A DNA stretch of 64,000 nt from Microbacterium pseudoresistens (GTDB taxonomy: Bacteria > Actinomycetota > Actinomycetes > Actinomycetales > Microbacteriaceae), in assembly GCF_013409745.1 (NCBI RefSeq), contig NZ_JACCBH010000001.1:1550001-1614000 (forward strand), written 5' to 3'. Of this stretch, positions 2,117-20,071 are shown in pieces. The translations under genes and the position numbers were made by a program. The notes beneath the pieces are model-generated. The model saw nothing but the letters and a program-made list of their open reading frames with translations, ran no database searches and was not told the DNA's origin. The first letter of the stretch is position 1, and each line of letters opens with the position of its first letter.

Positions 2117-2129
2117 CACATCTCCTCAA

Positions 2130-2145
2130 ATCGAAGTTCTTCAAT
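2130..2145. promoter_or_regulatory. Inverted repeat, probable ArsR operator for the flavoprotein gene
   Basis: ATCGAAGTTCTTCAAT is an inverted repeat with 7-base arms around TT and one mismatched pair. It lies directly upstream of the flavoprotein ribosome-binding site, where a bound repressor would block transcription. It shares the ATCGAAG half-site with the box at 2164-2180. Confidence 0.55.
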
Positions 2146-2163
2146 ACGAAACTGTTACGCATC

Positions 2164-2180
2164 TATCGAAGAATGTCAAT
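2164..2180. promoter_or_regulatory. Putative ArsR operator upstream of arsR
   Basis: TATCGAAGAATGTCAAT matches 16 of 17 bases of the reverse complement of 232-248 in the trxB/arsC intergenic region. It ends 18 bases before the proposed GTG start of arsR and so fits autoregulation. Confidence 0.6.
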
Positions 2181-2198
2181 ACGTGCCGGACTAGACCC

Positions 2199-2540
2199 GT
2201 GAGCCTGCCAACCACCATCGAAGCGACCGCCTGCTGCGTGCCACGCATCACCTCCGCGCTCACCGCTGAAGATGCGGAGCGGGTGTCACGGGTGTTTAAG
2301 GCCCTAGGCGATCCGACCCGCGTCAGACTGTTGTCCCTCATTGCGGCCGGCGCGGGCGGCGAAGCATGCATCTGTGACCTCACAGAACCGGTCGGGCTCT
2401 CGCAGGGCACGGTCTCGCATCACATGAAGCTCCTGACCGATGCGGGTCTGGTCACTCGGGAGCAACGAGGCAAGTGGGCGTACTTCGCACTCAACGACGG
2501 CGCGCTGGATGCGGCCGCCGACGCACTTCGCTCGGTATGA
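2199..2540 (+). CDS. arsR: ArsR-family arsenic-responsive repressor
   Basis: 113 residues from a GTG at 2199. The open frame extends further upstream, but that part overlaps the divergent promoter. The winged helix is clear: FKALGDPTRVRLL, then the recognition helix GLSQGTVSHHMKLL and the wing EQRGKWAYF. Cysteines at C12-C13 and at C57 and C59 (ACICDL) resemble the ligand sets of both Corynebacterium-type ArsR and the classical ELCVCDL site, so trivalent arsenic sensing is plausible. The last codons overlap the MFS gene by ATGA. It probably represses itself, the flavoprotein and the trxB/arsC pair through the shared boxes. Confidence 0.88.
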   Translation: MSLPTTIEATACCVPRITSALTAEDAERVSRVFKALGDPTRVRLLSLIAAGAGGEACICDLTEPVGLSQGTVSHHMKLLTDAGLVTREQRGKWAYFALNDGALDAAADALRSV

Positions 2541-3709: not shown

Positions 3710-3740
3710 CGCGGTAACTCAGGAGAGTTCTTCCACGCTC

Positions 3741-3762
3741 GTTCACCTCACGTTCACATAGA
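3741..3762 (+). promoter_or_regulatory. PHO box (PhoP/RegX3-type direct repeats) upstream of pstS
   Basis: Two adjacent 11-base units, GTTCACCTCAC and GTTCACATAGA, match the actinobacterial PhoP direct-repeat consensus GTTCACC. They lie about 90 bases upstream of the pstS start and predict induction by phosphate limitation through a chromosomal PhoR-PhoP or SenX3-RegX3 system. Confidence 0.75.
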
Positions 3763-3852
3763 TGACCTTCTATGAATACGTCGGATAGACAACCATCTAT
3801 TTGAGGCGGTCCACTGGCTGCCTGACACGTATCTGAGATGAAGGAAGCAATC

Positions 3853-4818
3853 GTGCGAAAGACCACAGCAAAGATCTTCGCGTCGACGGCGCTGGTCGTC
3901 ATCGGCGCGCTCACGCTGAGCGCCTGCGGGGGACAACCCGCGGAGGGTGACTCCGGCGGATCGGGCGGCTCCGCAAGCGGATTGTCCGGTTCGGTGACCA
4001 CCGACGGTTCGTCGACCGTTGCCCCGCTCACCGAGGCGGCAGCAGACCTGTTCGGCGACGAGGAGTCCGGTGTGAACGTCTCCGTCGCCACGTCTGGCAC
4101 CGGCGGCGGGTTCAAGTCTTTTTGCGCCGACGAGACTGACATCTCCAACGCGTCCCGTCCGATCAAGGACGAAGAGGCTGCGGAGTGCGAGGCGGCGGGT
4201 GTCGAGTACACCGAGATCGTCGCCGCGAACGACGGGCTCTCGGTGATCATCAACCCGGAGAACGACTGGGCTGAGGACCTCACCGTCGAGCAGCTCAACA
4301 CCATCTGGGGCCCGGAAGCCGAGGGTGAGATCACCAACTGGAACCAGGTCGACTCGAGCTTCCCCGACCAGGCCATCACGCTGTTCGGTGCGGGAACAGA
4401 CTCCGGCACGTTCGACTACTTCACCGACGCGATCAACGGTGAAGAGGGCGCGATTCGCACCGACTACAGCCCGTCGGAGGACGACAACATCACCGTCCAG
4501 GGCGTCTCGGGCGACGTCGGCGCGATCGGCTTCCTTGGCCTGAGCTACGTCGAAGAGAACGAGGGCGTCATCAAGGCCGCCATGATCGACGGTGTGATGC
4601 CGAGCACGGAGACCGTTCAGGACGGCACCTACACGCCGCTGGGGCGTCCGCTGTTCATCTACGTCAACAACGCCTCCTACGTTGAGAAGGAACAGGTGAA
4701 GGCGTTCGTCGACTTCTACGTCGCGAACTCGCTCGACATCGCCGAGCGTGCTCTGTTCGTCCCCCTCACCGAGGAGCAGGTCACCACGGCCTCGGACGAG
4801 CTCGCCTCACTCGGCTGA
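3853..4818 (+). CDS. pstS: Phosphate ABC transporter substrate-binding lipoprotein PstS
   Basis: 321 residues from the GTG at 3853, chosen because AAGGAAG lies at ideal spacing before it; an in-frame ATG at 3838 would add five residues. A signal peptide with lipobox LSAC is followed by a Gly/Ser-rich linker. The PstS phosphate-loop sequences are visible: TDGSSTVAPL, SGTGGGFKSF, DISNASRPIK and AGTDSGTFDYF. It captures phosphate at the outer membrane face for PstCAB. It is the first gene of pstS-C-A-B behind a PHO box. PstS proteins discriminate against arsenate, which is relevant next to ars genes. Confidence 0.95.
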   Translation: MRKTTAKIFASTALVVIGALTLSACGGQPAEGDSGGSGGSASGLSGSVTTDGSSTVAPLTEAAADLFGDEESGVNVSVATSGTGGGFKSFCADETDISNASRPIKDEEAAECEAAGVEYTEIVAANDGLSVIINPENDWAEDLTVEQLNTIWGPEAEGEITNWNQVDSSFPDQAITLFGAGTDSGTFDYFTDAINGEEGAIRTDYSPSEDDNITVQGVSGDVGAIGFLGLSYVEENEGVIKAAMIDGVMPSTETVQDGTYTPLGRPLFIYVNNASYVEKEQVKAFVDFYVANSLDIAERALFVPLTEEQVTTASDELASLG

Positions 4819-4841
4819 TCCGCCCGCTCACGACGCCTCCC

Positions 4842-5798
4842 ATGACCACCGTCACTGAGCGGACAGGGGGGCCGGCCACTGGTCGGGCCCCCTCCCCCTC
4901 CACATCATTCGCCGGACGCCGCCGGCCTGGTGAGTTCCTCATCAAGCTCGGGCTGCGCGTGGCCGCCGGCATCACTGTCATCACGACGGTCGGCATCCTC
5001 ATCGCGCTGCTGATTCCGTCGCTGAGCTTCTTCGCCGAAGTGCCCGTGCTCGAGTTTCTCTTCGGTACACGCTGGGCACCGCGGTTCGCGGACGCCTCGT
5101 TTGGCGTTCTGCCCCTGGTCACCGCAACACTCTGGACGACGGTGATCGCTCTCCTGGTCGCGGTGCCGTTCGGTCTCGGCGCCGCGATCCTCCTCGCGGA
5201 GTACGCCAAACCCCGCGTCCGCAAGATCCTCAAGCCGCTGTTGGAGATCCTCGCCGGCATCCCGACCGTCGTCTACGGGTTCTTCGCCCTTCAGTTCGTC
5301 CAGGGCACGGTCCTCCGCGACTGGCTTCAACTGCCCACTGGCGCGTTCAGCGTTCTCGCCGCTGGCCTTGTGATGGGCGTCATGATCATTCCCACCATCG
5401 CCTCGATCGCCGAAGATGCCATGTCTGCCGTTCCCAGCGCGCTCCGACAGGGAAGCGCCGCCCTCGGCGCCAACCGCATGCAGACCACTCTCCGCGTTGT
5501 CTTCCCCGCAGCGCTGTCAGGCATCGTCGCCGCCGTCGTCCTGGGGATCTCCCGCGCGGTCGGAGAGACGATGATCGTTGCGATCGCCGCCGGCAGCCAG
5601 GCACAGATGGTGAGCAACCCGCTCGAGCAGGGACAGACGATGACCGGCTTCATCGCGAACGCCGCCCTGGGCGACTCCCGCGTCGGAAGCCTGGAATACA
5701 ACACGCTCTTTGCCGTCGGGCTGCTGCTGTTCCTCATCACGCTGCTCATCAATTTCATCAGCATCCGCTTCGTGCGTCGATTCCGGGAGGCCTATTGA
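4842..5798 (+). CDS. pstC: Phosphate ABC transporter permease PstC
   Basis: 318 residues with an N-terminal cytoplasmic extension of about 30 residues and roughly six transmembrane helices. The PstC-typical segments LEILAGIPTVVYGFFAL and GISRAVGETMIVAIAAG (the EAA-type loop that docks onto PstB) are present. It forms the membrane channel with PstA. It follows pstS by 23 bases, and its TGA shares one base with the pstA ATG, so the pair is translationally coupled. Confidence 0.95.
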   Translation: MTTVTERTGGPATGRAPSPSTSFAGRRRPGEFLIKLGLRVAAGITVITTVGILIALLIPSLSFFAEVPVLEFLFGTRWAPRFADASFGVLPLVTATLWTTVIALLVAVPFGLGAAILLAEYAKPRVRKILKPLLEILAGIPTVVYGFFALQFVQGTVLRDWLQLPTGAFSVLAAGLVMGVMIIPTIASIAEDAMSAVPSALRQGSAALGANRMQTTLRVVFPAALSGIVAAVVLGISRAVGETMIVAIAAGSQAQMVSNPLEQGQTMTGFIANAALGDSRVGSLEYNTLFAVGLLLFLITLLINFISIRFVRRFREAY

Positions 5799-6712
5799 TG
5801 TCCGCGCCGACAACCACCCCGCCCCGCGTAATCCACGCATCACGCCCGCTCGCGACCGGGCGAAACGGTGAGATGCGCCCCACTGCGCTTTTGTTCCTCC
5901 TGCTGCTGTGGTTCTCGCTGTTCGTCGCGTTCGCGGTGCTCATCACGCTGCTGGTGACCATCTTCCTCACCGGACAGAACAAGCTCTCCTGGAACCTCAT
6001 AACGAACTTCCCTTCCGCCGACCCCGAGGAAGCCGGAGCTCGCCCCGCCATCCTCGGTTCCGTCTGGGCGATCGGCACCACCGCCGTGCTGACTTTGCCC
6101 CTGGGCATCGCCGCCGCGGTACACCTGGAGGAGTTTGCCGACCGGAAACGCTGGTTCAACAAGTTCGTCGAACTCAACGTGCAGAACCTCGCCGCCGTCC
6201 CGTCCATCGTCTACGGCCTACTGGCCCTCGCATTCCTGTCGATGTTGGGCGTGACCAACAAGAACATCGTCATCGGCGGGGCGCTCGCACTGACCCTGCT
6301 CATCCTGCCGGTCATCATCATCGCCACCAGAGAAGCCCTCCGTGCCGTGCCCCGCGAGATCCGCGACGGCTCTCTGGCACTGGGGGCGACGCCGTGGCAG
6401 ACAACGTGGCGGCAGGTGCTCCCCGCATCCGTCCCCGGCATCGCCACAGGGTCGATCCTCGCCCTGTCCCGCGCCCTGGGCGAGGCCGCACCGCTGCTCG
6501 TCCTCGGCGCCCTTGTGTACATCACCTTCGATCCGAACGGGCTCCTCAGTGGATACACCACCTTGCCGATTCAGATCTTCAACTGGACCGGGCGACCACA
6601 AGAGGGATTCCACGAACTCGCCGGCGCGACCAGCATCCTTCTGCTCGCCGTTCTCATCCTGATGAACGCCCTCGCCATCTTCATCCGCAACAAGTTCCAG
6701 AAACGGTGGTAA
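5798..6712 (+). CDS. pstA: Phosphate ABC transporter permease PstA
   Basis: 304 residues from the ATG at 5798, which overlaps the last base of the pstC stop. The sequence shows six hydrophobic helices, the [17 protein letters not shown] segment and the [17 protein letters not shown] docking region shared with PstA proteins. With PstC it forms the phosphate channel. The C-terminus [10 protein letters not shown] is cytoplasmic and basic. The gene sits between pstC and pstB in the standard order. Confidence 0.95.
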
Positions 6713-6714
6713 CC

Positions 6715-7572
6715 ATGAGCACCTCCACAGACAGCTCGGCAGCACACACTCACTTCCACGCCGCCAACTCACGCCGCGTCGCCGAAACCCCCAGCGGACT
6801 CATTCGCTGCGAGGACGTCAACGTCTACTACGGCGACTTCCGTGCCGTCACCGGCGTGAACCTCGAATTCGGCCGCAACGAGATCACCGCTCTCATCGGT
6901 CCCTCCGGATGCGGCAAATCCACCCTCCTGCGTTCCCTGAATCGCATGAACGACCTCATCGACGGTGCCCACGTCGAGGGCAACGTCCTCTTCCAGGAGG
7001 AGAACATCTACGCAAAGGGTGTCGATCCGATCGAAGTCCGCCGACGCATCGGCATGGTCTTCCAGAAGCCGAACCCGTTCCCGAAGTCGATCTACGACAA
7101 CATCGCCTACGGCCCCAGGGTCACGGGGATGAAGGTCGACAACATGGACGACCTCGTCGAGGAAGCGCTGACACGTTCGGCCCTCTGGGGAGAGGTCAAG
7201 GACAAACTCAAGCAATCGGCGTTCGGTCTCTCGGGCGGTCAACAGCAGCGCCTGTGCATTGCCCGGACCATCGCCGTACAGCCCGACGTGATCCTCATGG
7301 ACGAGCCGTGTTCTGCTCTCGATCCGATCGCCACCTCACGGATCGAAGACCTGATGCACGAACTGCGCCAGGACTATACGATCATCATCGTCACCCACAA
7401 CATGCAGCAGGCCGCACGCGTGGCTGATCGCACCGCATTCTTCACTGCCCTCGCCGATGACACCACCGGCGACCGCACGGGCGTGCTGGTCGAATACGAC
7501 CTCAACAAGAACATCTTCGAGCAGCCGCAAGACCAGCGCACCGAGGACTACATCAGCGGACGATTCGGATGA
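6715..7572 (+). CDS. pstB: Phosphate ABC transporter ATPase PstB
   Basis: 285 residues from the ATG at 6715, two bases after pstA. Walker [10 protein letters not shown], the Q-loop [15 protein letters not shown], signature LSGGQQQR, Walker B VILMDEP and the switch histidine in [10 protein letters not shown] are all present. [16 protein letters not shown] is diagnostic of PstB. An N-terminal extension of about 30 residues is longer than usual. It energises PstCA. The 3' end overlaps the following regulator gene by four bases. No phoU follows. Confidence 0.95.
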
Positions 7573-8258
7573 GCGACATCCCCCGGGCCGGCAACGCCCG
7601 ATTCGTCGTACACGGCAACAGCACCGATATTCTCCGGGGCAGCTTCGCCGAATTCCGCCACGCGGGAGTGCCGATCACAATCCACCCAGAGATCGTCGGC
7701 GCCCTCGCCGATCTCGCTCACGATGACGATGCCTCGCTCATCCTCGCAGGCGGCGAAGCCTTCGAGCAGCTCAGCGCCATCCTCCAGATCGCCCAGCCCG
7801 TATGCGGCGGCTCCATCTTTCTCGGTGTTTCCGATACCACCGCGACGGCGACGATAGCCGGCGCGATGACAGCGGGAGTGCGCGGCACGGTCCGGCTGCC
7901 GATGAGCCCGCAACGACTGCGGGAAGTCGCCCGCCTGCACCCGCGGACCGGCCCGATCGAGCGCATCCTCACCATCGGAGAACTGACCCTCGACGTCCCG
8001 CACCGCAGTCTTCGATGGCGAGACCAGTCGCTGCTCCTGCCCGCGCGGGAGTTCGAGCTCCTGCACCAGATCATTCGTGCGTACCCGGAGAGTGTGAGCA
8101 TCGACACCCTCGCGCTCGCCTTCGGTTCCGACCTGGAAGACCCTCATGCTTCGGTGCGGGTAGCGATGACGAAACTGCGTGCACGGCTGGCGGCGTTCGC
8201 CCCCGCACAAGCACTCATCGAGACCGTGCGGGTGGCAGGTTACCGGCTCGCGTCCTGA
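7569..8258 (+). CDS. Winged-helix regulator with degenerate receiver-like N-terminus
   Basis: 229 residues, coupled to pstB by ATGA. The C-terminal half (about 130-228) is an OmpR/PhoB-type DNA-binding domain: [24 protein letters not shown], then the recognition region [15 protein letters not shown] and the wing VRVAGYRL. The N-terminal half has the length and strand rhythm of a receiver, but the phospho-acceptor Asp expected after SLILAG is missing and the conserved Lys region reads VRLPMSP. It is therefore probably an atypical, phosphorylation-independent regulator. Its place at the end of the pst operon suggests control of phosphate uptake, perhaps replacing PhoU or PhoB. Its 3' end overlaps the opposing arsC by 19 bases. 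Confidence 0.7.
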
Positions 8259-9196
8259 GGCTCGACCCCGAGTTCAACCAGCAGGTCCAGAACACGGGAG
8301 CGAATGTCGTCACGCACATCCCGGAGACCAGCGTCATCAAGCTCAAGCGGATCCGGAAGATCCCACTCCATGTACCGACGCCCCGGAAACACCGGACACG
8401 CGTCGCCGCACCCCATCGTGATGACATAGTCGGCGGCGCGCACGACGTCATCGGTCAGCGGCTTCGGGAACTCGCCCCACAACTCCACGCCCGCTTCCAA
8501 CAACGCCGCAGCTACGCGAGGATGCGCGGCCTCGGCCGGTGATGAACCCGCCGTCCGAACGTGCACCTTCCCGCTGGAGAGGTGACGTAAGAATGCTCCG
8601 GCCATCTGCGAGCGGCCGGCATTCTGCACGCAGACGAACAGCACCTCCGGTGTATCTCGGAGTAGCAACCCCTGCGCTGTCGCAAGAGCCTCCAGCCGGT
8701 CAGCGGCATAACGCTCCGTCATCGTCAGAAGGTGCTCGCGGACGCGTGCCCGCTGACTCAACAGCAGATAGCTCTGCGCAACATAGCTCGCCACCGTCTC
8801 GGGGCTGAACGTGGAACTGAACCGGTACGCCAGATCCGCAACGATCGTCATCACTCCCTGCGGGAGATCCGTGACCGACGGGGTAGCCGGCTCAGTCTGC
8901 AGCGACTCACTCGACAGCAGTCGCCCAAATCGGACCCAGGTATCGACGGTCGGAGTCATTCGCCCCTCGTCGTCGCGTACCAGCGCCGTCATGAGAAGGG
9001 AGTGCAGCGCAGCGTCGACCACTGCCTGCTTCATTCCTAATTTCGCGGGGATCGACGCCGCAGGAACGTCGGACGCGAGAGCGCTGAGGACACGAAGGAT
9101 GTCGGGGTTGCCCAGGACCGATACCTGCGCGGCCCGATCGCGCGCGGCGCGCTCATCGAGCGGCTTGCCCACTCGATGGCGCGCGTTGTCGCTCAC
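8240..9196 (-). CDS. arsC: Arsenate reductase with N-terminal HTH-like and helical domains
   Basis: 318 residues from a GTG overlapping the arsR stop. Three regions can be seen. Residues 25-90 look like a winged helix (LGNPDILRVLSALAS, AVVDAALHSLL). Residues 115-175 form a helical bundle beginning VADLAYRFSSTFSPETV, as found ahead of actinobacterial LMW phosphatases. Residues 185-318 are the LMW-PTP ArsC with CVQNAGRS (C189, R195), MGCGDACP (C263, C267) and the DP motif at D282. It reduces arsenate to arsenite with thiol reductants. It is far longer than plain ArsC (about 135 residues) and retains more catalytic features than the copy at 349. Confidence 0.88.
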   Translation of the reverse strand: MSDNARHRVGKPLDERAARDRAAQVSVLGNPDILRVLSALASDVPAASIPAKLGMKQAVVDAALHSLLMTALVRDDEGRMTPTVDTWVRFGRLLSSESLQTEPATPSVTDLPQGVMTIVADLAYRFSSTFSPETVASYVAQSYLLLSQRARVREHLLTMTERYAADRLEALATAQGLLLRDTPEVLFVCVQNAGRSQMAGAFLRHLSSGKVHVRTAGSSPAEAAHPRVAAALLEAGVELWGEFPKPLTDDVVRAADYVITMGCGDACPVFPGRRYMEWDLPDPLELDDAGLRDVRDDIRSRVLDLLVELGVEPQDASR

Positions 9197-9633: not shown

Positions 9634-11077
9634 TCAACTGCGCAGCTCTGGATAGTTCGACCAGGTACCGCCTGATTTCCTCTTGCGGCGGTCGGCCGTG
9701 TGGCCGCCGATGCCGATGACGTCAGCGATGACGGCGGACGGCATTCGCATCGACAGGAGGTTCATCCGGGTCTCACGCGACACCCGTGCGCGGATCCCAA
9801 GCTCAGCGAGGCGAAGCCGGATGTAGGCAGCCGTCATGTGCGTGCCCGGAGATAACCCCTCGAACAGCCAGCCTGATGCCCCTGCGGCATACCCTCTTCT
9901 TGGTTCCGCCGAGACTTGTCGGCGAACGAGATCGCCGACCACGTCATCGAGCACGATGGGGGGTGGCTCCGAACCGTACCGTCACCCGTTCTGGTGAGAC
10001 GTTGATCTGATCGCGCGTCAGGCTGACGGCGCGACCGAGTAGTTGGGCGTAGAGGAGCACGAACAGCCCGGCGACGCGCACTTCCAGCTCCACGCTCTCG
10101 TCCGTGAGGAGAAGATCAGTGGCACGCCACAGTTCCTCTTCGGTCATCGTCGTCATCGTGTTTCGAGCAGCGCGGGCGTGAGTGGTCAGGTCGCCAGTCA
10201 GCCGCGATTTCGTCGCCCACCGGACGAAGTGATCCACCGGCTCCCGGGTCTTGATGCGGGCGGTGTAGTGGTCAAGTGTGCGCTGGTCGAGGTCTCCGAG
10301 GAGCGTCCCTCTGGCATCCATCCAGACCAGGAATCGCACGACAGCGGCGAGATGGCCGCGCTGGCCGATGACGGCCTCCATGGACAGATCTCGGCCGCGA
10401 TCTCGGTAGCGTCGATGCAGTTTGGGCAGGATGTCCCACCTATAGAAGCGGCGGAGTTTGTTCCCCGACGCGGGCTCGAGCGCGCCCGCCAACGCGGCAA
10501 CGTGCAATGTGAGCTCGTGCTGCAGTACATGGATCTGGGGCAGCACGCCGGCTTCGATGAGCAGGCGTCGGAAGTAGCGAGTCGCCGCTCCTTGCGTTAG
10601 TAGATCAAGAGCCGAGTGGTCAACATCGAGTGCGCCGGTAGCCATGCCCTTCAGCGTCGCTGCGACGTGTGGACGGCGCAGCCAGCTGACCACCGAGCGG
10701 GGGTCCATCGGAGCATTCGCGAGGTGCGCACGAAGTCGGGTTAGCTCCACAGGGGCCGACCCATCGGCGCCGATAAGGTCATCGAGCCGCACCTGCAAGC
10801 GGCACCGTCCGCAATGGGTCCCGGTCAGGAACTCCTCGCTACCGCATGTGCGGCACGCGAACCTCGGTGGGTGACCCGCGCAGGTCGCGCACGTGATCGC
10901 ACCCTCCTCGGTGAGGAAAGCGAGCACCCGGATGTCCCCGCACTGCGGGCATTCGGCCGGGTTTCGTCGGAGCGTGCTGTAGCAGACGTTGCAGATTCTC
11001 CCGCCGAGCAGAGAGTACAGCCCTATAGCCGAGCGTCCGCAACGGTCGCAGGTCCGCAGAGGCGCTGCCGCCTTCAT
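9634..11077 (-). pseudogene. Zinc-ribbon recombinase-like gene, copy 1, frameshifted
   Basis: A second copy of the gene at 16068-17522, in the same orientation and mostly identical in protein sequence. The reading frame breaks in a run of six G at 9958-9963 where the intact copy has five, so the protein splits into an N-terminal part (to about 9944) and a C-terminal part (9634-9954). The copy ends YPELRS, a few residues before the intact one. Similarity continues upstream to about 11166, taking in the tail of the XRE gene, and then stops. It is therefore a 3' fragment of the three-gene module. The proposed start is the ATG at 11077. Confidence 0.85.
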
Positions 11078-11260
11078 CGGTTGGAATCGCGAGGACGATG
11101 AAGCCGTGCGCGCACAGGGCGCAGATCCCCAATCGCGGTGTCGCGCCCGCGCGCAGTGCCCGTCTTGTCGGCGGAGAGAAGCATTCGCGGAGGCACTATT
11201 CACGACCTTTGGTGGTCTGACGTCACGGCGCGGACGAGAACACTTCATCCGGGCCCGGTG

Positions 11261-11587
11261 TCAGGAGAGTCGGGCCCGAATTCCCGCCTCGATCTGAGAC
11301 TCTGACGGCAACCCCGCAAGCCCCGTCTCGGTCGCATAAACCCGACACGCAATATTCGTCGTCTGCCCCGCAGACGGCACCACGTCCTCTCCGTCGACGA
11401 GGACCGTCGGCGACCCCGCGAACCCGACGGCAGCAGCATCCACCAGCGTCTCCACGAGCACGAACTCCACCGGCACATCCGGCAGGCCGAGCCTGCCCAG
11501 CACCGCCTGGACACGATCGCCCGTGGTCTCCCAATTCGGGCACTCATCGATATGAACAACCTGGATCTTCACCCGACCATTCTCCAC
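11261..11587 (-). CDS. Thioredoxin-fold protein with CPN motif
   Basis: 108 residues from a GTG at 11587. It begins with the strand IQVVHIDECPNWETT, a glutaredoxin/thioredoxin-like first strand with a single cysteine in the active-site position, followed later by GFAGSPTVLVDGEDV, which has the cis-proline typical of the fold. Similar small proteins accompany mercury and arsenic genes in actinobacteria, some annotated as DF-family (seleno)proteins. A role in handling metal-thiol intermediates is inferred. It stands alone between recombinase copy 1 and the divergent DsbA-like gene. Confidence 0.6.
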   Translation of the reverse strand: MENGRVKIQVVHIDECPNWETTGDRVQAVLGRLGLPDVPVEFVLVETLVDAAAVGFAGSPTVLVDGEDVVPSAGQTTNIACRVYATETGLAGLPSESQIEAGIRARLS

Positions 11588-11694
11588 CCGATCCCGGGAC
11601 AGGTGGTCCTGAATCGAACCGACACCCGGTCCTGAACCGAGTTGACATAGCCAGCTGTTGGAATCGATTGTTCTCTGTGCATGCCGAACGTCAG

Positions 11695-11718
11695 ATAGGT
11701 CATTGGTCCCTGTATAGT
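11695..11718 (+). promoter_or_regulatory. Promoter/operator element shared with cmtR
   Basis: ATAGGTCA, eight bases, TGTATAGT. The same two 8-mers with the same 8-base spacing recur at 12608-12631 before cmtR. TATAGT at 11713-11718 can serve as a -10 element. It lies 100 bases upstream of the DsbA-like gene, so that gene probably belongs to the CmtR regulon. Confidence 0.6.
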
Positions 11719-11817
11719 CATGTCGATGCCCTCAGCGGTGTATGCCGCACGGTGTCTGCGTCTCTTGCCGCGATGCCCATGCCCCAGCGACAACCACGCC
11801 CCGATCTGGAGCCCTCC

Positions 11818-12471
11818 ATGAAGACCCCAGTCAAGGTCACTCTCGTCACCGTTGCCGTCCTCATTGCCCTCGCTATCGTGGCGCTCATCGTCGTCATGAT
11901 GACCCGCCCCGACGCTCCCGACGCCGGCGCGGAAGGAACCCTGCCGGGCACCCGCGCGGACTCGCATGTCCTCGACGACGCCGGACCGGACGCTCCCACC
12001 CTGGTGGAGTTCCTCGACTTCGAATGCGAAGCGTGCGGGGCGTTCTATCCCGTCGTCGAGCAGATCCGTGAAGAGTATGCGGGCGAGATCAACTATGTCG
12101 TCCGTTACTACCCGCTCCCCGGACACTTCAACTCTATGAACGCGGCCCTGGCTGCGGAGGCTGCGGCCGAACAGGGGAAGTTCGAGGAGATGTATCAGCG
12201 TCTGTTCGAAACCCAGGCCCAGTGGGGCGAATTGCAGACCTCGCGAGCCGACCTCTTCCGCACCTTCGCGGAAGACTTGGGGCTCGACATGAACGCCTAC
12301 GATGTCGCCGTCGCCGGCCCCGTCACCAGGGAGAGAGTCGAAGCTGACTTCAACGACGGACAGTATCTCGGCATCAGCGGCACACCCACCTTCTTCCTTG
12401 ACGGCGAGAAGCTCGAACTTACACAGCTCAGCGACCTAACCGACGCCCTCGATGAGGCGACAGGACGATAA
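11818..12471 (+). CDS. Membrane-anchored DsbA-like thiol oxidoreductase
   Basis: 217 residues from the ATG at 11818 (GGAGCCCTCC upstream). One N-terminal transmembrane helix (residues 6-28) and a short linker precede a DsbA/thioredoxin_4 domain with the redox motif CEAC at 70-73 and a cis-proline loop GISGTPTFFLDG near 190. It acts outside the membrane on protein thiols. In this cassette it may protect or re-oxidise exported proteins under cadmium or lead stress. Its upstream region carries the same bipartite element as cmtR. BdbD-like proteins are the nearest comparison. Confidence 0.8.
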   Translation: MKTPVKVTLVTVAVLIALAIVALIVVMMTRPDAPDAGAEGTLPGTRADSHVLDDAGPDAPTLVEFLDFECEACGAFYPVVEQIREEYAGEINYVVRYYPLPGHFNSMNAALAAEAAAEQGKFEEMYQRLFETQAQWGELQTSRADLFRTFAEDLGLDMNAYDVAVAGPVTRERVEADFNDGQYLGISGTPTFFLDGEKLELTQLSDLTDALDEATGR

Positions 12472-12607
12472 CCTGGAGAGCCTTGCGCTCTCGAGTCTGA
12501 CCGCATGCGCCTACCTGGCGCTGAGCCCCGATCACGCCGCACCCGCGCGCAGCAAGGGCGGCTGAAGGCGAGGATGCGCTTCGCGTATATCGAGACAGCA
12601 GTTTCTA

Positions 12608-12650
12608 ATAGGTCAGCGGGTACTGTATAGTTCAGTGCATGCTGACTATT
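12608..12650 (+). promoter_or_regulatory. cmtR promoter with overlapping operator; leaderless start
   Basis: TATAGT at 12626-12631 ends seven bases before the cmtR ATG at 12639, so transcription should start at or next to the start codon. ATAGGTCA-N8-TGTATAGT repeats the element at 11695-11718. An imperfect palindrome (12627-12649, centred on GCATGC) overlaps the -10 and the start codon, where a bound repressor would block initiation. Confidence 0.65.
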
Positions 12651-12998
12651 GCTTCACGTCTCGACGTCATGAACCGGCTCGGCCGGGCCATGGCCGACCC
12701 GACGCGTTCCCGGATCCTGATGACCCTCCTCGGCGGCCCGAGCTACCCGGCGGTGCTCTCCCGCGAGCTGGAGCTGACGCGCTCGAACGTGTCCAACCAC
12801 CTCACCTGCCTCCGCGACTGCGGAATCGTGGTCGCCGAGCCCGAGGGGCGGCAGACGCGGTATGAGATCGCCGACCCGCACCTCGCGGCGGCGCTCGTCG
12901 CGCTGGTGGATGTGACGCTGGCTGTCGACGAGAATGCGCCGTGCGTGGACTCTTCGTGCACGGTCCCGGGCTGCTGCGGAGCGGGGGCTGACGCGTGA
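12639..12998 (+). CDS. cmtR: CmtR-type cadmium/lead-sensing ArsR-family repressor
   Basis: 119 residues. The sequence closely follows Mycobacterium tuberculosis CmtR, including LGRAMADPTR, LTRSNVSNHLTCLRDCG and EGRQTRYEIADPHLA. The three Cd/Pb ligands of CmtR fall at the same positions here: C57 and C61 in the recognition helix and C102 near the C-terminus. Extra cysteines follow (C107, C112, C113). It represses until Cd(II) or Pb(II) binds. Its GTGA overlap with the ATPase gene makes cmtR-ATPase-cadD-lspA one transcript. Confidence 0.93.
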   Translation: MLTIASRLDVMNRLGRAMADPTRSRILMTLLGGPSYPAVLSRELELTRSNVSNHLTCLRDCGIVVAEPEGRQTRYEIADPHLAAALVALVDVTLAVDENAPCVDSSCTVPGCCGAGADA

Positions 12999-14911
12999 GC
13001 GCGGCGTGCGGCTGCGAGCACGAGCCTGTCGCTGCGGCGGACGATGAGACAGAAGAGGCGGAGCGGCCCTGGTGGAGGGACCGCGGGATCATGGTGCCGG
13101 TCTTCTCCGGCGTCGCATTCCTTACCGGTCTGATCCTCGAGTGGTCCGGCCTTGAGATCCCGGCGCTCGTGCTGTTCTGGATCGGCCTTCTGCTGGGAGC
13201 GTCGACGTTCACTCCCGGCGCGATCCGGAAGCTGTTCAAGGGCAAGCTCGGGATCGGGCTGCTGATGACGATCAGCGCGATCGGCGCAGTCATCCTCGGC
13301 TACGTGGAGGAGGCCGCGGCTCTGGCGTTCCTGTACTCGATCGCCGAGGCGCTCGAGGACAAGGCGATGGACCGCGCCCGGGGCGGCCTGCGGGCGCTGC
13401 TGAAGCTCGTGCCGGAGACAGCGACAGTGCTGCAGAGCGGCGTCGCTGCGCAGGTGCCGGCCAGAGCGTTGACGGTCGGCCAGGTCATGGTGGTCCGCCC
13501 GGGCGAACGGATCGCAACCGACGGGATCGTCCTCTCTGGCCGCTCAAGCCTGGACACCTCGGCGATCACCGGGGAGTCGATCCCCGTCGAGGTCGAGCCC
13601 GGGGACGCGGTGTCGGCCGGCGCGATCAACAGCTCCGGCGTGCTGGAGGTCGAGGCGACCGCGGCCGGTACCGATAACTCGCTTACGACGATCGTGGAGT
13701 TGGTCGAGAAAGCGCAGACGGAGAAGGGCGAGCGTGCGCGTCTCGCGGACCGGATCGCCCGCCCGCTCGTACCCGGTGTGCTGATTCTCGCAGCGCTCGT
13801 CGCGATCATTGGGTCACTGCTGGGCGACCCGGAGGTATGGATCACTCGTGCGCTCGTCGTGCTGGTAGCGGCCTCTCCGTGCGCGCTGGCGATCTCGGTG
13901 CCGCTGACAGTCGTCGCCGCGATCGGCGCGGCGAGCAAGTTCGGCGTGATCATCAAGTCCGGCGCGGTGTTCGAGCGCTTCGGCACAGTCCGGCACGTTG
14001 CCGTCGACAAGACCGGCACCCTCACCCGCAACGAGCCCGCAGTCGCCGCCGTGCTCACCGCGAACGGCGTGACCGAGGCGCAGGCGCTGGCGTGGGCGGC
14101 CGCGTTGGAGCAGCACAGCACGCATCCTCTCGCCTCGGCGATCACCGCTGCGGCCCCGGGTGTTCCCGCAGCTGCGGACGTGACCGAGCAGGCCGGGCAC
14201 GGCATCCAGGGCACCGTCGACGGCGCTCATATCACGGTCGGCAGCCCCCGCTGGCTCGACGCGGGCGAACTCGGTGACCGGGTCGCGGGCCTGGAAGAAC
14301 AGGGCATGACCGTCGTGATCGTCCACCGCGACGGAGTGCCGGCCGCCGCGATCGGCGTCCGCGACGAGTTGCGTCCCGAAGTCCCCGAGGTCGTCCGCAC
14401 GCTCGCGGACCAGGGTATCGACGTGACGATGCTCACCGGCGACAACGCCCGGACCGCTCGTGCACTGGCGGCGCAGGCCGGGATCAGCGACGTGCGTGCG
14501 GAGCTGCGTCCCGAGGACAAGGCGGCGGCGATCGGCGAGTTGTCGAAGGCGGGATCGGTCGCGATGATCGGTGACGGCATCAACGACGCCCCGGCCCTGG
14601 CGTCCGCGGACATCGGCATCGCGATGGGCGCGACCGGCTCCGACGCAGCGATCGAGTCCGCCGACGTGGCCTTCACCGGTCATGATCTGCGCCTCATCCC
14701 GCGGGCGTTCGATCACGCCCGCCGCGGTCGACGGATCATCAACCAGAACATCATCCTGTCGCTGCTGATCATCACCGCGCTGCTCCCGCTCGCGCTCTTC
14801 GGCGTGCTGGGGCTCGCGGCCGTCGTGCTGGTCCACGAGGTTGCGGAGGTCATCGTTATCCTCAACGGCCTGCGTGCCGCGAGCACCCGCACGCCACGGT
14901 TGGAGAGCTGA
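12995..14911 (+). CDS. cadA: Cadmium/lead/zinc-exporting P1B-type ATPase
   Basis: 638 residues from the GTG overlapping the cmtR stop. No HMA domain is present; a short CGCEHE motif at the N-terminus may bind metal instead. TGES (192-195), the transmembrane SPC metal motif (294-296), the phosphorylated Asp in DKTGTLT (D338), MLTGDN and GDGINDAPAL are intact. HEVAEVIVILNGLR at the end fits the Zn/Cd/Pb (P1B-2) group. It pumps divalent metal out of the cell using ATP. It overlaps cadD at ATG/TGA. Confidence 0.92.
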   Translation: MSAACGCEHEPVAAADDETEEAERPWWRDRGIMVPVFSGVAFLTGLILEWSGLEIPALVLFWIGLLLGASTFTPGAIRKLFKGKLGIGLLMTISAIGAVILGYVEEAAALAFLYSIAEALEDKAMDRARGGLRALLKLVPETATVLQSGVAAQVPARALTVGQVMVVRPGERIATDGIVLSGRSSLDTSAITGESIPVEVEPGDAVSAGAINSSGVLEVEATAAGTDNSLTTIVELVEKAQTEKGERARLADRIARPLVPGVLILAALVAIIGSLLGDPEVWITRALVVLVAASPCALAISVPLTVVAAIGAASKFGVIIKSGAVFERFGTVRHVAVDKTGTLTRNEPAVAAVLTANGVTEAQALAWAAALEQHSTHPLASAITAAAPGVPAAADVTEQAGHGIQGTVDGAHITVGSPRWLDAGELGDRVAGLEEQGMTVVIVHRDGVPAAAIGVRDELRPEVPEVVRTLADQGIDVTMLTGDNARTARALAAQAGISDVRAELRPEDKAAAIGELSKAGSVAMIGDGINDAPALASADIGIAMGATGSDAAIESADVAFTGHDLRLIPRAFDHARRGRRIINQNIILSLLIITALLPLALFGVLGLAAVVLVHEVAEVIVILNGLRAASTRTPRLES

Positions 14912-15516
14912 TGCTCGCGACCATCGGTTCAGCGATCGGTCTGTTCGCGGCGACCAACATCGACGACATCGTCGTGCTCACGGTGCTGTTCCTCGCCTCC
15001 AGCCGGGGGAAGCCGCGGCCGTGGCAGATCGTCGCGGGTCAGTATCTCGGGTTCATCACCCTCGTCGTGATCAGCGTGGTCGCCGCGCTGGGTCTCACGA
15101 TCGTTCCGGACGAATGGGTGGGCTTCCTCGGTCTCATCCCGCTCGGCATCGGCATCTGGACGCTCATTCGCGGCCTGCGCCGCAACGGCGACGATGATGA
15201 CGACGACAAGATCACCGCGGTCGGCCTGTGGGGCGTCGCGGGGATCACGATCGCCAACGGTGCGGATAACATCTCCCTGTACACGCCGATCTTCCGCACC
15301 AGTACGCCCGGCGACGTCGTGATCATGATCGTCGTGTTCCTGATCCTCGTCGCCGTCTGGTGCGCGGCCGGTCGACTGATCGGAACACACAAGGCGGTCA
15401 CCGAGACGCTCGAACGCGTCGAGCACTGGCTCGTCCCGGTCGTGTTCATCGGCCTGGGCCTGTTCATCCTCGTTGAATCCGGCGTCATCGTTCGTCTGTT
15501 CGAGGTCCTCGCATGA
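14911..15516 (+). CDS. cadD: CadD-family cadmium resistance transporter
   Basis: 201 residues, overlapping the ATPase stop by one base. About five to six transmembrane helices are seen, with the family motifs GLFAATNIDDIVVLTVLF near the N-terminus and GVAGITIANGADNISLYTP in the second half. A run of six Asp near residue 96 in the cytoplasmic loop could bind metal. CadD proteins give cadmium resistance by export or sequestration. It is part of the cmtR operon and overlaps lspA by four bases. Confidence 0.9.
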   Translation: MLATIGSAIGLFAATNIDDIVVLTVLFLASSRGKPRPWQIVAGQYLGFITLVVISVVAALGLTIVPDEWVGFLGLIPLGIGIWTLIRGLRRNGDDDDDDKITAVGLWGVAGITIANGADNISLYTPIFRTSTPGDVVIMIVVFLILVAVWCAAGRLIGTHKAVTETLERVEHWLVPVVFIGLGLFILVESGVIVRLFEVLA

Positions 15517-16034
15517 CCCCCGACACGAACGCCGACGTTGAGTCGGCGTCGGAAGAGCGTCCGCAGAGGGGGCGCTGGCGGCTCACGGCCTGGGCGCTCC
15601 TGATCGCTGTGGTCGTCGTCTTCATCGATCAGGGGACGAAGGCATGGGCCGAGGCAACTCTGTCGGAGTATGAGCGCATCCCGCTGATCGGCGACCTGCT
15701 GGGCATGCAGCTCGCGTACAACCCTGGGGCGGCGTTCTCCTTCGGCGAGGGCTCTACCTGGGTGTTCGCGCTCATCGCCGTCGCGGCCACTGTGACCGCG
15801 ATCGTGTTCGCGTTCCGGGTCCGACGCCCTGGGTGGGCGGTCGTGATCGGTGCGCTCGGCGGGGCCGCTGCTTCGCATGCCGGTGACCGGCTTTTCCGCC
15901 AACCAGGATTCGCCCGGGGTCACGTCGTGGACTTCCTCGCCTACGGCAACTGGTTCATCGGGAACGTCGCCGACATCGTGATCGTCACCGCCGCGATTGC
16001 CGGAGCGCTCCTGATGCTCCGCGACGGCAAGTAG
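15513..16034 (+). CDS. lspA: Signal peptidase II in the cadmium operon
   Basis: 173 residues, four transmembrane helices. The family boxes FIDQGTKAWAE, AYNPGAAFSFG, the first catalytic Asp (GDR, D125) and the second (NVAD, D154) are present. The Asn usually found three residues before D125 is His here (SHAGDR). It removes lipoprotein signal peptides. As an extra copy at the end of a metal operon it recalls PbrC, the signal peptidase of the Cupriavidus lead operon. No pbrB-like phosphatase is present. The target lipoprotein is unknown; the nearby PstS is one lipoprotein candidate. Confidence 0.9.
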   Translation: MTPDTNADVESASEERPQRGRWRLTAWALLIAVVVVFIDQGTKAWAEATLSEYERIPLIGDLLGMQLAYNPGAAFSFGEGSTWVFALIAVAATVTAIVFAFRVRRPGWAVVIGALGGAAASHAGDRLFRQPGFARGHVVDFLAYGNWFIGNVADIVIVTAAIAGALLMLRDGK

Positions 16035-16067
16035 CGACAGAGAGGTAAGGCTCGCTGATCGGGCGGC

Positions 16068-17522
16068 TCAGTCCGCGTGGTTGCTCCGCAGCTCTGGGTA
16101 GTCTGACCAGGTACCGCCTGATCTCCTCTTGCGTCGGTCGGCCGTGTGGCCGCCGATGCCGATCACGTCAGCGATGACGGCGGCGGGCATACGCATCGAC
16201 AGAAGGCTCATCCGGGTCTCGCGCGATACCCGTACGCGGATCCCACGCTCCGCGAGGCGAAGCCGGATGTAGGCGGCCGTCATGTGCGCGCCCGGGGATA
16301 GCCCCTCGAACAGCCAGGGTGATTCCCCTCCGGCATACCCGCGACGGGGTTCCGCCGACAGTTGTCGACGAACGAGATCACCGACCGCGTCGTCGAGCAC
16401 GATGGGGGTGATACCGAACTGCACGGTCACCCGTTCTGGTGTGACGATGATCTGTTCGCGTTTCAGGCTGACCGTGCGACCGAGTAGTTGGGCGTAGACG
16501 AGCACGAACAGTCCGGCGACGCGCACTTCCAGCTCCACGCTCTCGTCTGTGAGGAGAACATCGGTGGCGCGCCATAGTTCCTCTTCGGTCATCGTCGCCA
16601 TCGTGTTTCGAGCAGCACGATCATGAGTGGCCAGGTCACCTGCCAGCCTCGATCTCGTCGCCCATCGGACGAAATGATCCACCGGTTCCCGGGTCTTGAT
16701 GCGGGCGGCGTAGTGGTCAAGTGAGCGCTGGTCAAGGTTTCCGAGGAGCATGCCTCTGGCATCCATCCAGGCCAGGAACCGCACGACAGCGGCAAGGCTG
16801 CCGCGCTGGCCGATGAACGCCTCCATGGATAGATCTCGTCCGCGATCACGGTAGCGTCGGTGCAGTTTGGGCAGGATGTCCCACCGGTAGAAGCGGCGGA
16901 GTTTGTTCCCAGACGTGGGCAGGAGGGTGCCCGCCAACGCGGTGACGTGCAGTGTGAGTTCATGCTGCAGCACGTGAATCTGCGGGAGTACGCCGGATTC
17001 GATGAGCAGCCGCCTGAAGTAGCGCGTCGCCGCACCCTGCTTGAGGAGATCAAGGGCCGAGTGGTCCACATCGACTGTGCCAGTGGCCATGCCTTTCAGT
17101 GTCGCTGCGACGTGCGGACGTCGAAGCCAGCGGACCACTGAGCGAGGGTCCATCGGAGCATCCGCGAGGTAGGCACGGAGACGGGTCAGCTCCACAGGAG
17201 TCGACGCGTCCGCGCCGATGAGGTCATCGAGCCGGACTTGCAAGCGGCACCGTCCACAGTGGGTGCCGGTCAAGAACTCTTCGCTGCCGCACGTGCGGCA
17301 CGCGAACCTGGGTGGGAGACCCGCGCAGGTCGCGCAGGTGATCGCACCCTCATCGGTGAGGAAAGCGAGGACTCGAACTTTCCCGCACAGCGGGCATTCG
17401 GCCGGGTTTCGTCGGAGTGCGCTGTAACAGACGTTGCAGATTCTCCCACCGAGCAAGGAATACAGGCCCTCGGCTGAGCGCCCACACCGGTCGCAGCTAC
17501 GGGTGGGTGTTGCTGCTGTCAT
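16068..17522 (-). CDS. Zinc-ribbon protein with degenerate tyrosine-recombinase domain (module gene 3)
   Basis: 484 residues. The first 95 carry six CxxC pairs (C10/13, 29/32, 43/46, 63/66, 75/78, 89/92), consistent with three zinc ribbons for nucleic-acid or protein binding. The C-terminal third resembles a tyrosine recombinase catalytic domain in outline: an LFVLVYAQLLGR helix, SRETRMSLLSMRMP where HxLR would be, then GIGGHTADRR and a late Tyr in TWSDYPEL. Several catalytic positions look changed, so it may be an accessory rather than an active recombinase. It overlaps the XRE gene by ATGA, and a frameshifted copy lies at 9634-11077. Confidence 0.65.
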   Translation of the reverse strand: MTAATPTRSCDRCGRSAEGLYSLLGGRICNVCYSALRRNPAECPLCGKVRVLAFLTDEGAITCATCAGLPPRFACRTCGSEEFLTGTHCGRCRLQVRLDDLIGADASTPVELTRLRAYLADAPMDPRSVVRWLRRPHVAATLKGMATGTVDVDHSALDLLKQGAATRYFRRLLIESGVLPQIHVLQHELTLHVTALAGTLLPTSGNKLRRFYRWDILPKLHRRYRDRGRDLSMEAFIGQRGSLAAVVRFLAWMDARGMLLGNLDQRSLDHYAARIKTREPVDHFVRWATRSRLAGDLATHDRAARNTMATMTEEELWRATDVLLTDESVELEVRVAGLFVLVYAQLLGRTVSLKREQIIVTPERVTVQFGITPIVLDDAVGDLVRRQLSAEPRRGYAGGESPWLFEGLSPGAHMTAAYIRLRLAERGIRVRVSRETRMSLLSMRMPAAVIADVIGIGGHTADRRKRRSGGTWSDYPELRSNHAD

Positions 17523-17866
17523 CGATCGGGATCGGCTGGACGGTGAAGTCGTGCCCGCACAGGGCGAAGATCGCCAATCGCGGCGTCACGCCCGCGTGCA
17601 GTGCCCGTCTTCCTGGCCACTGCCGATTGCGCCGCCACCGTGATCAGATCATTCGGCTGACATCCAAAGATGCGGCACAACGCCGCCAGAACTTCGACGT
17701 TCAGCCTCTCCGGAGTGCGGGTGACCAGCCGATACACCTGCTCGCGGGAGAGTTCGACGCCCTGCTCGCGCAAAGGGGCTAGCAACTCGGTGGTCTGGAA
17801 CATCCCGGCCCCGGCCATCACGGCGCGCAAGTGCCAGTCGATGGGGCCCTTGGACTCAGTTGTCAT
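17519..17866 (-). CDS. XRE-family HTH protein (module gene 2)
   Basis: 115 residues. A Cro/C1-type helix-turn-helix is clear: LREQGVELSREQVYRLV, then LNVEVLAALCRIFGCQPNDL. An Ala/Arg-rich basic tail follows. It overlaps the tyrosine recombinase upstream by 11 bases and the zinc-ribbon gene downstream by 4, so the three proteins are made together. It may direct or repress the recombinases. It is the small middle gene of the module; only its tail survives next to recombinase copy 1. Confidence 0.75.
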   Translation of the reverse strand: MTTESKGPIDWHLRAVMAGAGMFQTTELLAPLREQGVELSREQVYRLVTRTPERLNVEVLAALCRIFGCQPNDLITVAAQSAVARKTGTARGRDAAIGDLRPVRARLHRPADPDR

Positions 17867-19001
17867 TGCGGTTCTCCGTGTTCCTCTTCAGCGCGTCGGC
17901 GAGCACCCGGTTCTTGTAATCGTCGCCGACGGATGTGTAGATCGCGGTGGTCGAGGCAAACGCATGCCCCACCTGGTCCTGAACAAACTTCTCGCTGTAG
18001 CCCCACTCGATGAGGTTCGTCACATAGGTGTGCCGCAGCGAATGCAGCGTCAGCTCCTCCGGAAGCCCAGCCTCGTCGCGCAACTCAGCGAATCGATCGT
18101 TCAGATAGCGAGGACTGACCCTCGTCCGGCGCTCCGTCGGCCAGAGGATACCCGTCTCCCAATCGCCAGCCATCCGGGGCCGCCCCTGGTCCACCCAATG
18201 AGTGAGGCCGTCAACAATCCAGTCGAACTCGGGCACAGTCAGCACGGTCCGCCGCTTGGGTCCGGTGCCCCGCGTGCCCTTCCCATGCCGGACGTAGACG
18301 GCGCCGAAGTTGCCGAACTGCGCTGCCACCGGGTTCGATCGCAGGTCAGCGATGTCGAGCCCGACGCACTCGGAGCGCCGAAGCCCAAACGCATAGATGG
18401 TCTTGAACATCTGAGCATTCCGGAGCGCAGCAAGTGCCCCCTTCCTCTTCGTGCGAACGATGCTCTCGACCCGAGCATCTGCAGCATCGAAGAACTGCTC
18501 CAACTCATCGAACGTGAGGGCTCGTCGTCCCGGCGATCCCTCGTAGTCCAGCAGATGCGTGATCGTGTTCCAGTCGTGGCAGATCTGCTGCGGGGCAGAC
18601 CCGAAACGGGTCAGGCACTCCGCCTGCCAGCCGTACCGTTGGTCGGTGAGGAACTCGCAGAAGAGACGGACATCCGTCTGATAGCCCCGAATCGTCGACC
18701 TCGACAACAGCTTCGCTCCAGACCGCCCGCGGGATGAGTAGTCCTCGAGGTCCTGCGGCTGCCACTGCCACGGGTATGTTGCGCAGTACTCGGTGAAGTG
18801 CTCGATGAATCGCCGGCGTCGATCAATGGTTCTCGCCAGTAGGCCACGACTCGCCTGCTGATCCGACCACCCATCCAACATCGACTCGAAAACGTATTTA
18901 GCCTCATCGAGCGCGACGACGTTCCCGATCAATCGCAGCGAAGATTGACCAACATCACCTGGACCAGAGCTCACGTCTCTATGTTGCAGTAGATGCATCA
19001 T
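17856..19001 (-). CDS. Tyrosine recombinase/integrase (module gene 1)
   Basis: 381 residues from the ATG at 19001. The N-terminal half is a SAM-like core-binding domain (residues about 30-140). The catalytic domain keeps the first Arg (AFGLRRSE), the HxxR box (HSLRHTYV), the second His box (GHAFAST) and the nucleophile Tyr (AIYTSV), so it looks active. It is the leading gene of an overlapping trio with the XRE and zinc-ribbon genes and lies nearest the right edge of the island, beside the truncated CoA transferase. It probably drove insertion there. Confidence 0.88.
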   Translation of the reverse strand: MMHLLQHRDVSSGPGDVGQSSLRLIGNVVALDEAKYVFESMLDGWSDQQASRGLLARTIDRRRRFIEHFTEYCATYPWQWQPQDLEDYSSRGRSGAKLLSRSTIRGYQTDVRLFCEFLTDQRYGWQAECLTRFGSAPQQICHDWNTITHLLDYEGSPGRRALTFDELEQFFDAADARVESIVRTKRKGALAALRNAQMFKTIYAFGLRRSECVGLDIADLRSNPVAAQFGNFGAVYVRHGKGTRGTGPKRRTVLTVPEFDWIVDGLTHWVDQGRPRMAGDWETGILWPTERRTRVSPRYLNDRFAELRDEAGLPEELTLHSLRHTYVTNLIEWGYSEKFVQDQVGHAFASTTAIYTSVGDDYKNRVLADALKRNTENRNDN

Positions 19002-19258
19002 TCTTGCAACTGTCTGGTGCGCCTAGATGCCGAGGTAATGTGCTTGACGCCCTCCACGAGCCACCAAAGCCGGTCGCGGGCGTAGGCAGGCCCGCTTCTT
19101 GTCTCGATGATGCCCGCAAGACGAGCTCATCGAGCTCCTCCGAGGTTCTGAGCTCCCCAAACCAGACATCTCAGGACTGCAACTTCAATACAGGAAGACC
19201 CGATCAATCCAGAAATTCCTGAACAAGGATGCATCTGATGCCGATACTTCTCACTTAG
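19002..19258. other. Right edge of the metal-resistance island
   Basis: These 257 bases lie between the recombinase start and the first codons of a truncated CoA transferase. I see no gene. The element's right end and recombinase promoter should lie here. The CoA-transferase frame is closed by TAG at 19256-19258, so homologous coding sequence begins at or after 19259. I could not identify a terminal inverted repeat or target duplication by eye. Confidence 0.5.
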
Positions 19259-20071
19259 CGGATCATGGCGAACCATCCGCACATCGTGTACGGGTCCATC
19301 ACCGGCTTCGGCTCCGAGGGGCCCCTCGCTGAACACGCGGGCACTGAGGTCATCGTAGAGGCGGAGTCCGGTCTGATGAGTGTGACGGGCCTCCCGGGCG
19401 GAGAACCCGTCCGATTCGGCGTCGCGATGATCGACATCGCGAGCGGGCTTTCGGCCATGAACGGCATCCTTGCGGCGCTCATCGAGCGCGGGCGAACCGG
19501 TCGCGGCCGGCGGATAGAGGTCTCCTTGTTCGCTACAGCCATCAGCGGCCTGGGCACCGTGATCGCCAGCGCCTCCGCCGGCGGTGGAAATCCCCGGGCA
19601 TGGGGGAGTGCCCATCCTTCGATCGTCCCCTATCGCGCGTTCGCGACATCGGACGGCTATGTCGTCCTCGGCGCCACCAACGATCCGATGTATGAACGGC
19701 TGCTGCGCGCTCTTGACCTCGAGGACTTCGACCAGGAGGACTGGCGGGTGAATGCCGGGCGCGTCCGCGACCGTGAGGTGCTCGAACAGATGCTGGCCGC
19801 GCGAGTACGCGAGCTCTCTGCGGAAGAGGTCATGGGACGGCTCCGGAAGCATCGTGTGCTCGTTGCGCCCGTCCGAACGCCTGATGAAGCCGCGCGCGGC
19901 GAACAGGCGAGAGCACTGGGCCTCATCGTCGACGACGACGGGCTCCTCGTCGCGCGATCCCCGCTGAGCACGAACGGGACGCGACTGCTCCACTCCGCGC
20001 CCGCCCTGGGTGCGCACACCGAAGAAGTGCTTGCGGAACTGCGCATGATCCGAGAGGAAGCCGCACGATGA
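19259..20071 (+). pseudogene. CaiB/BaiF-type (class III) CoA transferase, 5'-truncated
   Basis: About 270 residues remain of a family that is usually near 400. The sequence starts mid-protein with HPHIVYGSITGFGSEGPLAEH, which lies around residue 120 in full-length members. The N-terminal part with the CoA-binding fold and catalytic Asp is missing. LMSVTGLPGGEPVRFGVAM and GRGRRIEVSLF are typical of the family. The break coincides with the edge of the mobile island, so insertion probably removed the 5' end. An ATG at 19265 keeps the rest translatable, but catalysis is not expected. It overlaps the permease gene by ATGA. Confidence 0.8.

Follow-up and report, generated by a model that had tools for sequence, protein, structure and literature searches.

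A three-gene recombinase module as the presumed machinery of a precisely inserting cadmium- and arsenic-resistance element in Microbacterium pseudoresistens

Three overlapping genes, Y, X and Z, in a 64,000-nucleotide stretch of the Microbacterium pseudoresistens genome (the window; Table 1) probably serve a site-specific transposon of the tyrosine-recombinase type as its recombination module. Their open reading frames (ORFs) lie at the expected positions, and the overlaps of 11 bp (Y/X) and 4 bp (X/Z) noted in an earlier, sequence-only reading of this DNA are borne out by the ORF coordinates. Y matches Phage_integrase in full, and X matches HTH_26. The first gene had also been taken to be catalytically complete, and rightly so: the R-K-H-R-H-Y set is entire, and R208, K241, H320, R323, H346 and Y355 are invariant among 17 aligned Y proteins. 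A breakdown of the trio in other genomes had been named beforehand as grounds for giving up the idea of a common module; instead, the order Y-X-Z is held at 21 of 21 loci picked for the presence of Z, and also at six of six full-length loci from the phylum. Repeats at the start of Y (GTTGCA, GATGCATC and TGCAAC) are possible binding sites for X or of the arm type. A promoter scan of the DNA upstream of Y found no promoter.

What kind of protein is Z? The 12 cysteines of its six CxxC motifs are each conserved in at least 90% of 28 aligned Z proteins. A library domain search with Z by itself returned sub-threshold zinc-ribbon hits only, and a profile comparison of Z with the trio's own Y family found nothing. 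In hhalign, the Z profile matches three XerC/D-like recombinases, themselves picked out by that profile, over 198 columns (98.1% probability, E 7.3e-14); XerD is the top PDB sequence match of Z (E 0.021), and 2 of the 28 Z relatives reach Phage_integrase. Aligned to Xer, Z has Leu or Pro at Arg-I and a residue other than Lys at the catalytic Lys, and the His position of HxxR is Arg in the window's Z; Y475 is invariant among the aligned Z proteins. On this evidence from sequence, the C-terminal part of Z is a remote XerC/XerD homologue without catalytic Arg-I, Lys and His, and its fold is probably Xer-like. The comparison of hidden Markov models that the sequence-only reading had proposed for the 484-residue protein thus agrees with its picture of predicted zinc ribbons joined to a decayed tyrosine-recombinase domain. 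The Z of Streptomyces indicus (L100) has 776 aa, with an additional zinc-ribbon stretch preceding the usual one, so that long Z proteins look like the product of an N-terminal duplication.

Where does the element begin and end? A CoA-transferase (CoA_transf_3) gene is truncated immediately past Y, and its absent 5' part lies 22.9 kb leftward, outside the window; when rejoined, the two flanks give an in-frame ORF equal in length to an intact homologue (L005). The left end of the whole element reads TGTCGGCGGAGAGAAGTATTCCCGAGAGAACTATTCGC, and its one other close copy in the genome is at window position 11166, the very point, within the X gene, at which a decayed trio copy ceases to be homologous. 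There are two Z-side ends in the whole genome and one Y-side end. The CoA-transferase halves, the two Z-side ends and the unique Y-side end therefore indicate an 8,091-bp element (window 11166-19256) nested in an older one. The inner element has the trio at one end and carries genes for DsbA-like, ArsR, CadA, CadD and LspA proteins; the older element has ars-type genes, and both together span 22,906 bp. The G+C content is 65.2% in the element, compared with 70.4% and 68.1% in the flanks. When the Y-side end signature was searched in 398 sampled genomes of the family, the own genome alone matched.

The ends are fixed among close relatives. On the Z side (TGTCGG[CT]GGA...), three near-identical copies agree at 300 of 300 bases and begin to diverge at most one base from the end, while on the Y side (seven bases followed by [AC]A[GT]TAT) five near-identical copies diverge at most one base from one common point. 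Two of these five, L090 and L098, have one target in common and may represent one old insertion; the Y of L098 is itself interrupted. At the joint of the two ends, inverted arms face each other, ATACTTC/GAAGTAT in the own element and ATACTGC/GCAGTAT in the L053 type, and the two arms change together. They are weaker in L055 and L056, and none were seen at that place in L099 and L118.

The elements measure about 7.1 kb (L053), about 12.2 kb (L054), 9,216 bp (L055), 8,924 bp (L056), 3,962 bp (L099) and 3,475 bp (L118), the smallest being the trio and little more, and L055 carries cargo on its Y side. A segment of 3,888 bp is 99.9% identical between the Cryobacterium plasmid pA28BH2 (L053, 10259-14146) and M. 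saccharophilum (L054, 7132-11019), which points to recent transfer from one genus to another. Position 14146 of L053 was rejected as a recombination site; the boundary there is the start of the conserved cad operon, next to an ars segment. Matches of the Z type occur in 41 of 149 genomes of the genus, in 17 of 296 genomes of the phylum (after removal of three Xer-like false matches) and in 233 plasmid records, and a profile search of a protein collection with the Z alignment, in which the best 8000 candidates were scored, added one further relative (P0038). The trio class is widespread among actinobacteria, and among those of soil the element carries cadmium and arsenic resistance genes. Plasmid NZ_CP012698.1 (L057) has a split Y, of which the final part adjoins X, whereas a match to residues 10-319 is found about 26 kb away on that plasmid.

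The usual target is an SRAP (YedK/HMCES) gene, a DNA-damage-response gene, which is entered at codon 10, nine codons into the reading frame. In L055, L056, L090, L098, L099, L101 and L118 the 28 nt flanking the Y side are those with which an SRAP gene begins; they read ATGTGYGG..., encoding MCGRF, with a GTG start in L101, and the sequence that marks the target is ATGTGYGG..G.TTYG. The body of the gene follows Z in L055, L057, L094, L095, L099, L102, L105, L117 and L118, and a short SRAP piece is retained in L056. SRAP is split in 12 of the 18 elements of the clade (Y at least 60% identical, own element included; L098 and L105, from one metagenome-assembled genome (MAG), and L101 and L104, from one genome, counted once each), the others being the own element, L091, L053, L054, L096 and L097. 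A natural empty site is found on plasmid pYJNG, where the Z flank (500 bp, 91.6%) and the Y flank (52 bp, 94%) of the MAG element meet with offset 0 in an uninterrupted SRAP gene (92% identical). The joined frames are continuous in L055, L056, L099 and L118, and joining the flanks of L053 restores a cysteine-rich protein, presumably the copper-binding DUF326. The empty site and the rejoined reading frames show that insertion neither adds nor removes target bases. The comparison of empty and filled sites had been suggested at the outset.

Is the CoA-transferase site related to this target? A matrix made from six distinct SRAP sites alone, and scored on the four other delimited sites, ranks the own site 1 of 127,946, L091 5 of 42,232, L053 22 of 50,802 and L054 3 of 33,948. 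The combined p is 3e-13, or 2e-9 when the own site is excluded, although it was on some of the sites so tested that the likeness to the SRAP start had originally come to light. The looser pattern TGTGYGGNNGNTTYGYN, which had been widened at position 9 so that the own site fits, occurs exactly once in the own genome, at the insertion site; if one mismatch is allowed it is not commoner than a control (17 matches versus 19). The own genome lacks a canonical SRAP gene; its sole homologue is divergent (profile positions 54-182), in a frame without the MCGRF start. In 42 of 59 genomes of the genus a match spans positions 1-213 or 1-214. A simple rule by which elements take a second-choice site where SRAP is absent is opposed by G156 and Microbacterium sp. 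70-16, whose SRAP genes are intact and whose elements nevertheless lie at other sites. In G162, G143 and the L090 genome, a different, intact SRAP gene is still present, so the split copies there look accessory. SRAP-like matches occur in 1,649 of 72,556 plasmid records, with 1,472 covering at least 80% of the query; thus, plasmids often provide an SRAP start as a target. Elements of another subfamily were seen near 13613 in L060 and near 6128 and 10978 in L061, which has both ends, and the Y-side flank of L060 resembles what we take to be a Fic motif (HPFREGNGR); the genes targeted may therefore differ between subfamilies.

Has such an element been described before? The XER modules of Antarctic Arthrobacter plasmids, described in 2018 (PMC6305408), have the same three-gene core, namely a tyrosine recombinase, an XRE regulator and a third recombinase-type gene in the same order; their proteins are homologous to those of the window's trio, and their passenger genes are variable, as in the window's clade. 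The copy on pA40H2 is homologous gene by gene and shows, besides an inverted GGTGCTATT-type pair, the bases CCGACA at the Z side. XER modules insert between umuD and umuC (PMC6305408), whereas the own element lies in a CoA-transferase gene and those of its clade mostly in SRAP; the target is treated here as a trait of subfamilies and not as a defining one. Given the shared core, and given that Tn554, RIT, SE and GInt elements each depart from it in the features compared below, the element is classed here as a form of XER module whose Z is shorter and whose target is SRAP. The available account in PMC6305408 gives neither the ends, nor zinc ribbons, nor the nature of Z. In a search of the open-access literature (subscription papers lay outside it), that paper alone described this core, briefly, and nothing pointed to SRAP, YedK or HMCES as an insertion target. 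The sequence-only reading had proposed an undescribed mobile machinery spreading metal resistance in actinobacteria. This is partly supported: the cad/ars element is delimited and presumably mobile, and copies of 99.9% identity lie at different sites in members of different genera, but 'undescribed' was too strong in view of the XER modules.

The same reading saw a gene order recalling Tn554 or recombinase-in-trio (RIT) elements, with a zinc-ribbon partner that does not match them. Tn554 and its actinobacterial relatives (PMC3414803) are likewise tyrosine-recombinase transposons with a site preference, found on actinobacterial plasmids and chromosomes, but their recombinases number two, of which one is unusually long and both have a possible catalytic motif, and some also have TnpC; the window's trio has the catalytic set in Y only, with a zinc-ribbon partner. 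Nor do near-identical copies show a 6-bp donor footprint of the Tn554 type, the outermost bases being constant in three of them on the Z side and in five on the Y side. RIT elements (PMC3414803, PMC8138268) share the arrangement of three adjacent overlapping genes but consist of three tyrosine recombinases with catalytic motifs. SEs (PMC10214605) resemble the element in their non-catalytic partner of tyrosine-recombinase fold, Tfp, and in an operon at one end, cargo and target specificity; they differ in having intA-tfp-intB plus srap, with two active recombinases, in a 6-bp footprint, and in being known from Gammaproteobacteria. Their Srap is a recombination auxiliary protein and not the SOS peptidase (PMC10214605). 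GInts (PMC5385486) also have a recombinase-type operon at one end, carry cargo, encode a small protein of DNA-binding type and, in GinC, one without a catalytic arginine, and insert into a gene at its 5' end, but they comprise three integrase-type genes plus ginD (ginABCD), have imperfect flanking repeats of 10-11 nt, with no such flanking duplication here, and target an ABC transporter in the described cases. Both SEs and GInts are set apart here on their described features. The integron-like rulB elements of Pseudomonas (PMC4542609) share a recombinase module, variable cargo and site-specific insertion in a UV-damage gene; they differ in three predicted recombinases with a tetR homologue, a 3-bp direct repeat and rulB as the target.

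Could SRAP be a fourth gene of the element, carried as cargo? Its body does lie closely behind Z in 9 of the 18 elements, but the start lies beyond the opposite element end in L055, L056, L099, L118 and the MAG of L098 and L105, the uninterrupted gene joins both flanks unchanged, six elements of the clade have no SRAP, and the bodies are down to 36% identical among themselves. This reading is barely credible, and was rejected on the start codons beyond the far end and the frames that rejoin. Another possibility is that the cad region is a composite transposon moved by homologous recombination between two trio copies, which do flank the cad operon in the same direction. However, copy 1 has neither Y nor a Y-side end, and the inner unit possesses two ends of its own, the Z-side one inside X1 (the X remnant of copy 1); for the latter reason this very unlikely alternative was also rejected.

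A strand-biased copy-out/copy-in movement, as proposed for SEs and perhaps Tn554, is unlikely, with Z in the place of Tfp, X as an auxiliary and a fixed strand choice producing constant junctions. It draws on Tfp and GinC, proteins of tyrosine-recombinase fold that lack the catalytic set and that recombination requires (PMC10214605, PMC5385486), and the constant junctions in non-identical targets suggest a fixed strand resolution. Yet a donor footprint of 6 bp is left behind by SEs and by Tn554 (PMC10214605), whereas here the outermost bases are invariant across targets in near-identical copies, and the trio has one active recombinase, not two.

For the favoured transposon, whose trio is the presumed machinery, the comparisons reveal, at the level of DNA and protein sequence, fixed ends, zero-duplication insertion, a preferred SRAP target, look-alike sites elsewhere, exchangeable cargo and near-identical copies across genera. 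The element would close into a circle at its two ends, with Y binding the arms and performing all cutting and joining. Z, as a catalytically dead Xer-like zinc-ribbon protein, would not cleave but would keep hold of the target or the synapse as a partner, a role like that suggested for Tfp in SEs and for GinC in GInts. X may bind the TGCAAC/GATGCATC repeats, control the operon and aid assembly of the complex. At this locus, the second element probably entered the X gene of the older, ars-carrying element, and recombination between the Y sides would then have deleted Y1, leaving the 22.9-kb ars-cad composite in the CoA-transferase gene.

Further outer-element genes are found at 809-8258 and to the left of the window. 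Two pairs of direct repeats were seen outside the element, 42806-42946/44031-44171 (141 bp, 94%) and 41997-42112/45880-45982 (116 bp, 79%).

Table 1. Features of the nested elements and their surroundings (window positions).
Feature	Position	Strand	Remark
ArsC-like low-molecular-weight phosphatase-fold protein	8240..9196	-	outer-element cargo
Region adjoining X1 remnant	9634..11077	-	
X1, X remnant of copy 1	11077..11165	-	cut by inner Z-side end
Z-side end of inner element, TGTCGGCGGAGAGAAGCATTCGCGGAGGCACTATTCAC	11166..11203	+	within X gene of trio copy 1
DsbA-like thioredoxin-fold protein	11668..12471	+	cargo
ArsR/SmtB-type metalloregulator	12639..12998	+	cargo; annotation of similar DNA
CadA-like cation-translocating P-type ATPase	12995..14911	+	cargo; annotation of similar DNA
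CadD-family cadmium resistance transporter	14911..15516	+	cargo
LspA-like signal peptidase II	15513..16034	+	cargo
Z, 484 aa	16068..17522	-	six CxxC; 4 bp shared with X
X, Cro/C1-type HTH_26 protein, 115 aa	17519..17866	-	11 bp shared with Y
Y, tyrosine recombinase, 381 aa	17856..19001	-	complete R-K-H-R-H-Y set
GTTGCA / GATGCATC / TGCAAC repeats at Y start	18983..19010	-	candidate sites
Y-side end, AAGTGAGAAGTATCGGCATCAGATGCATC...	19217..19256	-	first element base 19256
Target flank, 28 nt resembling SRAP gene start (ATGTGCGGATGGTTCGCCATGATCCGCT)	19257..19284	-	CoA-transferase antisense strand
CoA-transferase (CoA_transf_3), 3' part	19257..20071	+	split by outer element; 5' part ends G000:C1:1546350

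The analysis gives ends, a target and a zero-duplication outcome for a class of elements with one brief description found in the open-access literature. The dead zinc-ribbon partner and the target at the start of SRAP genes are likely to surprise specialists. In the trio class, nature provides a way of testing what a recombinase partner contributes once it is catalytically dead, which is also still to be answered for Tfp and GinC. Moreover, the signatures of ends and target allow metal-resistance islands to be delimited from sequence alone.
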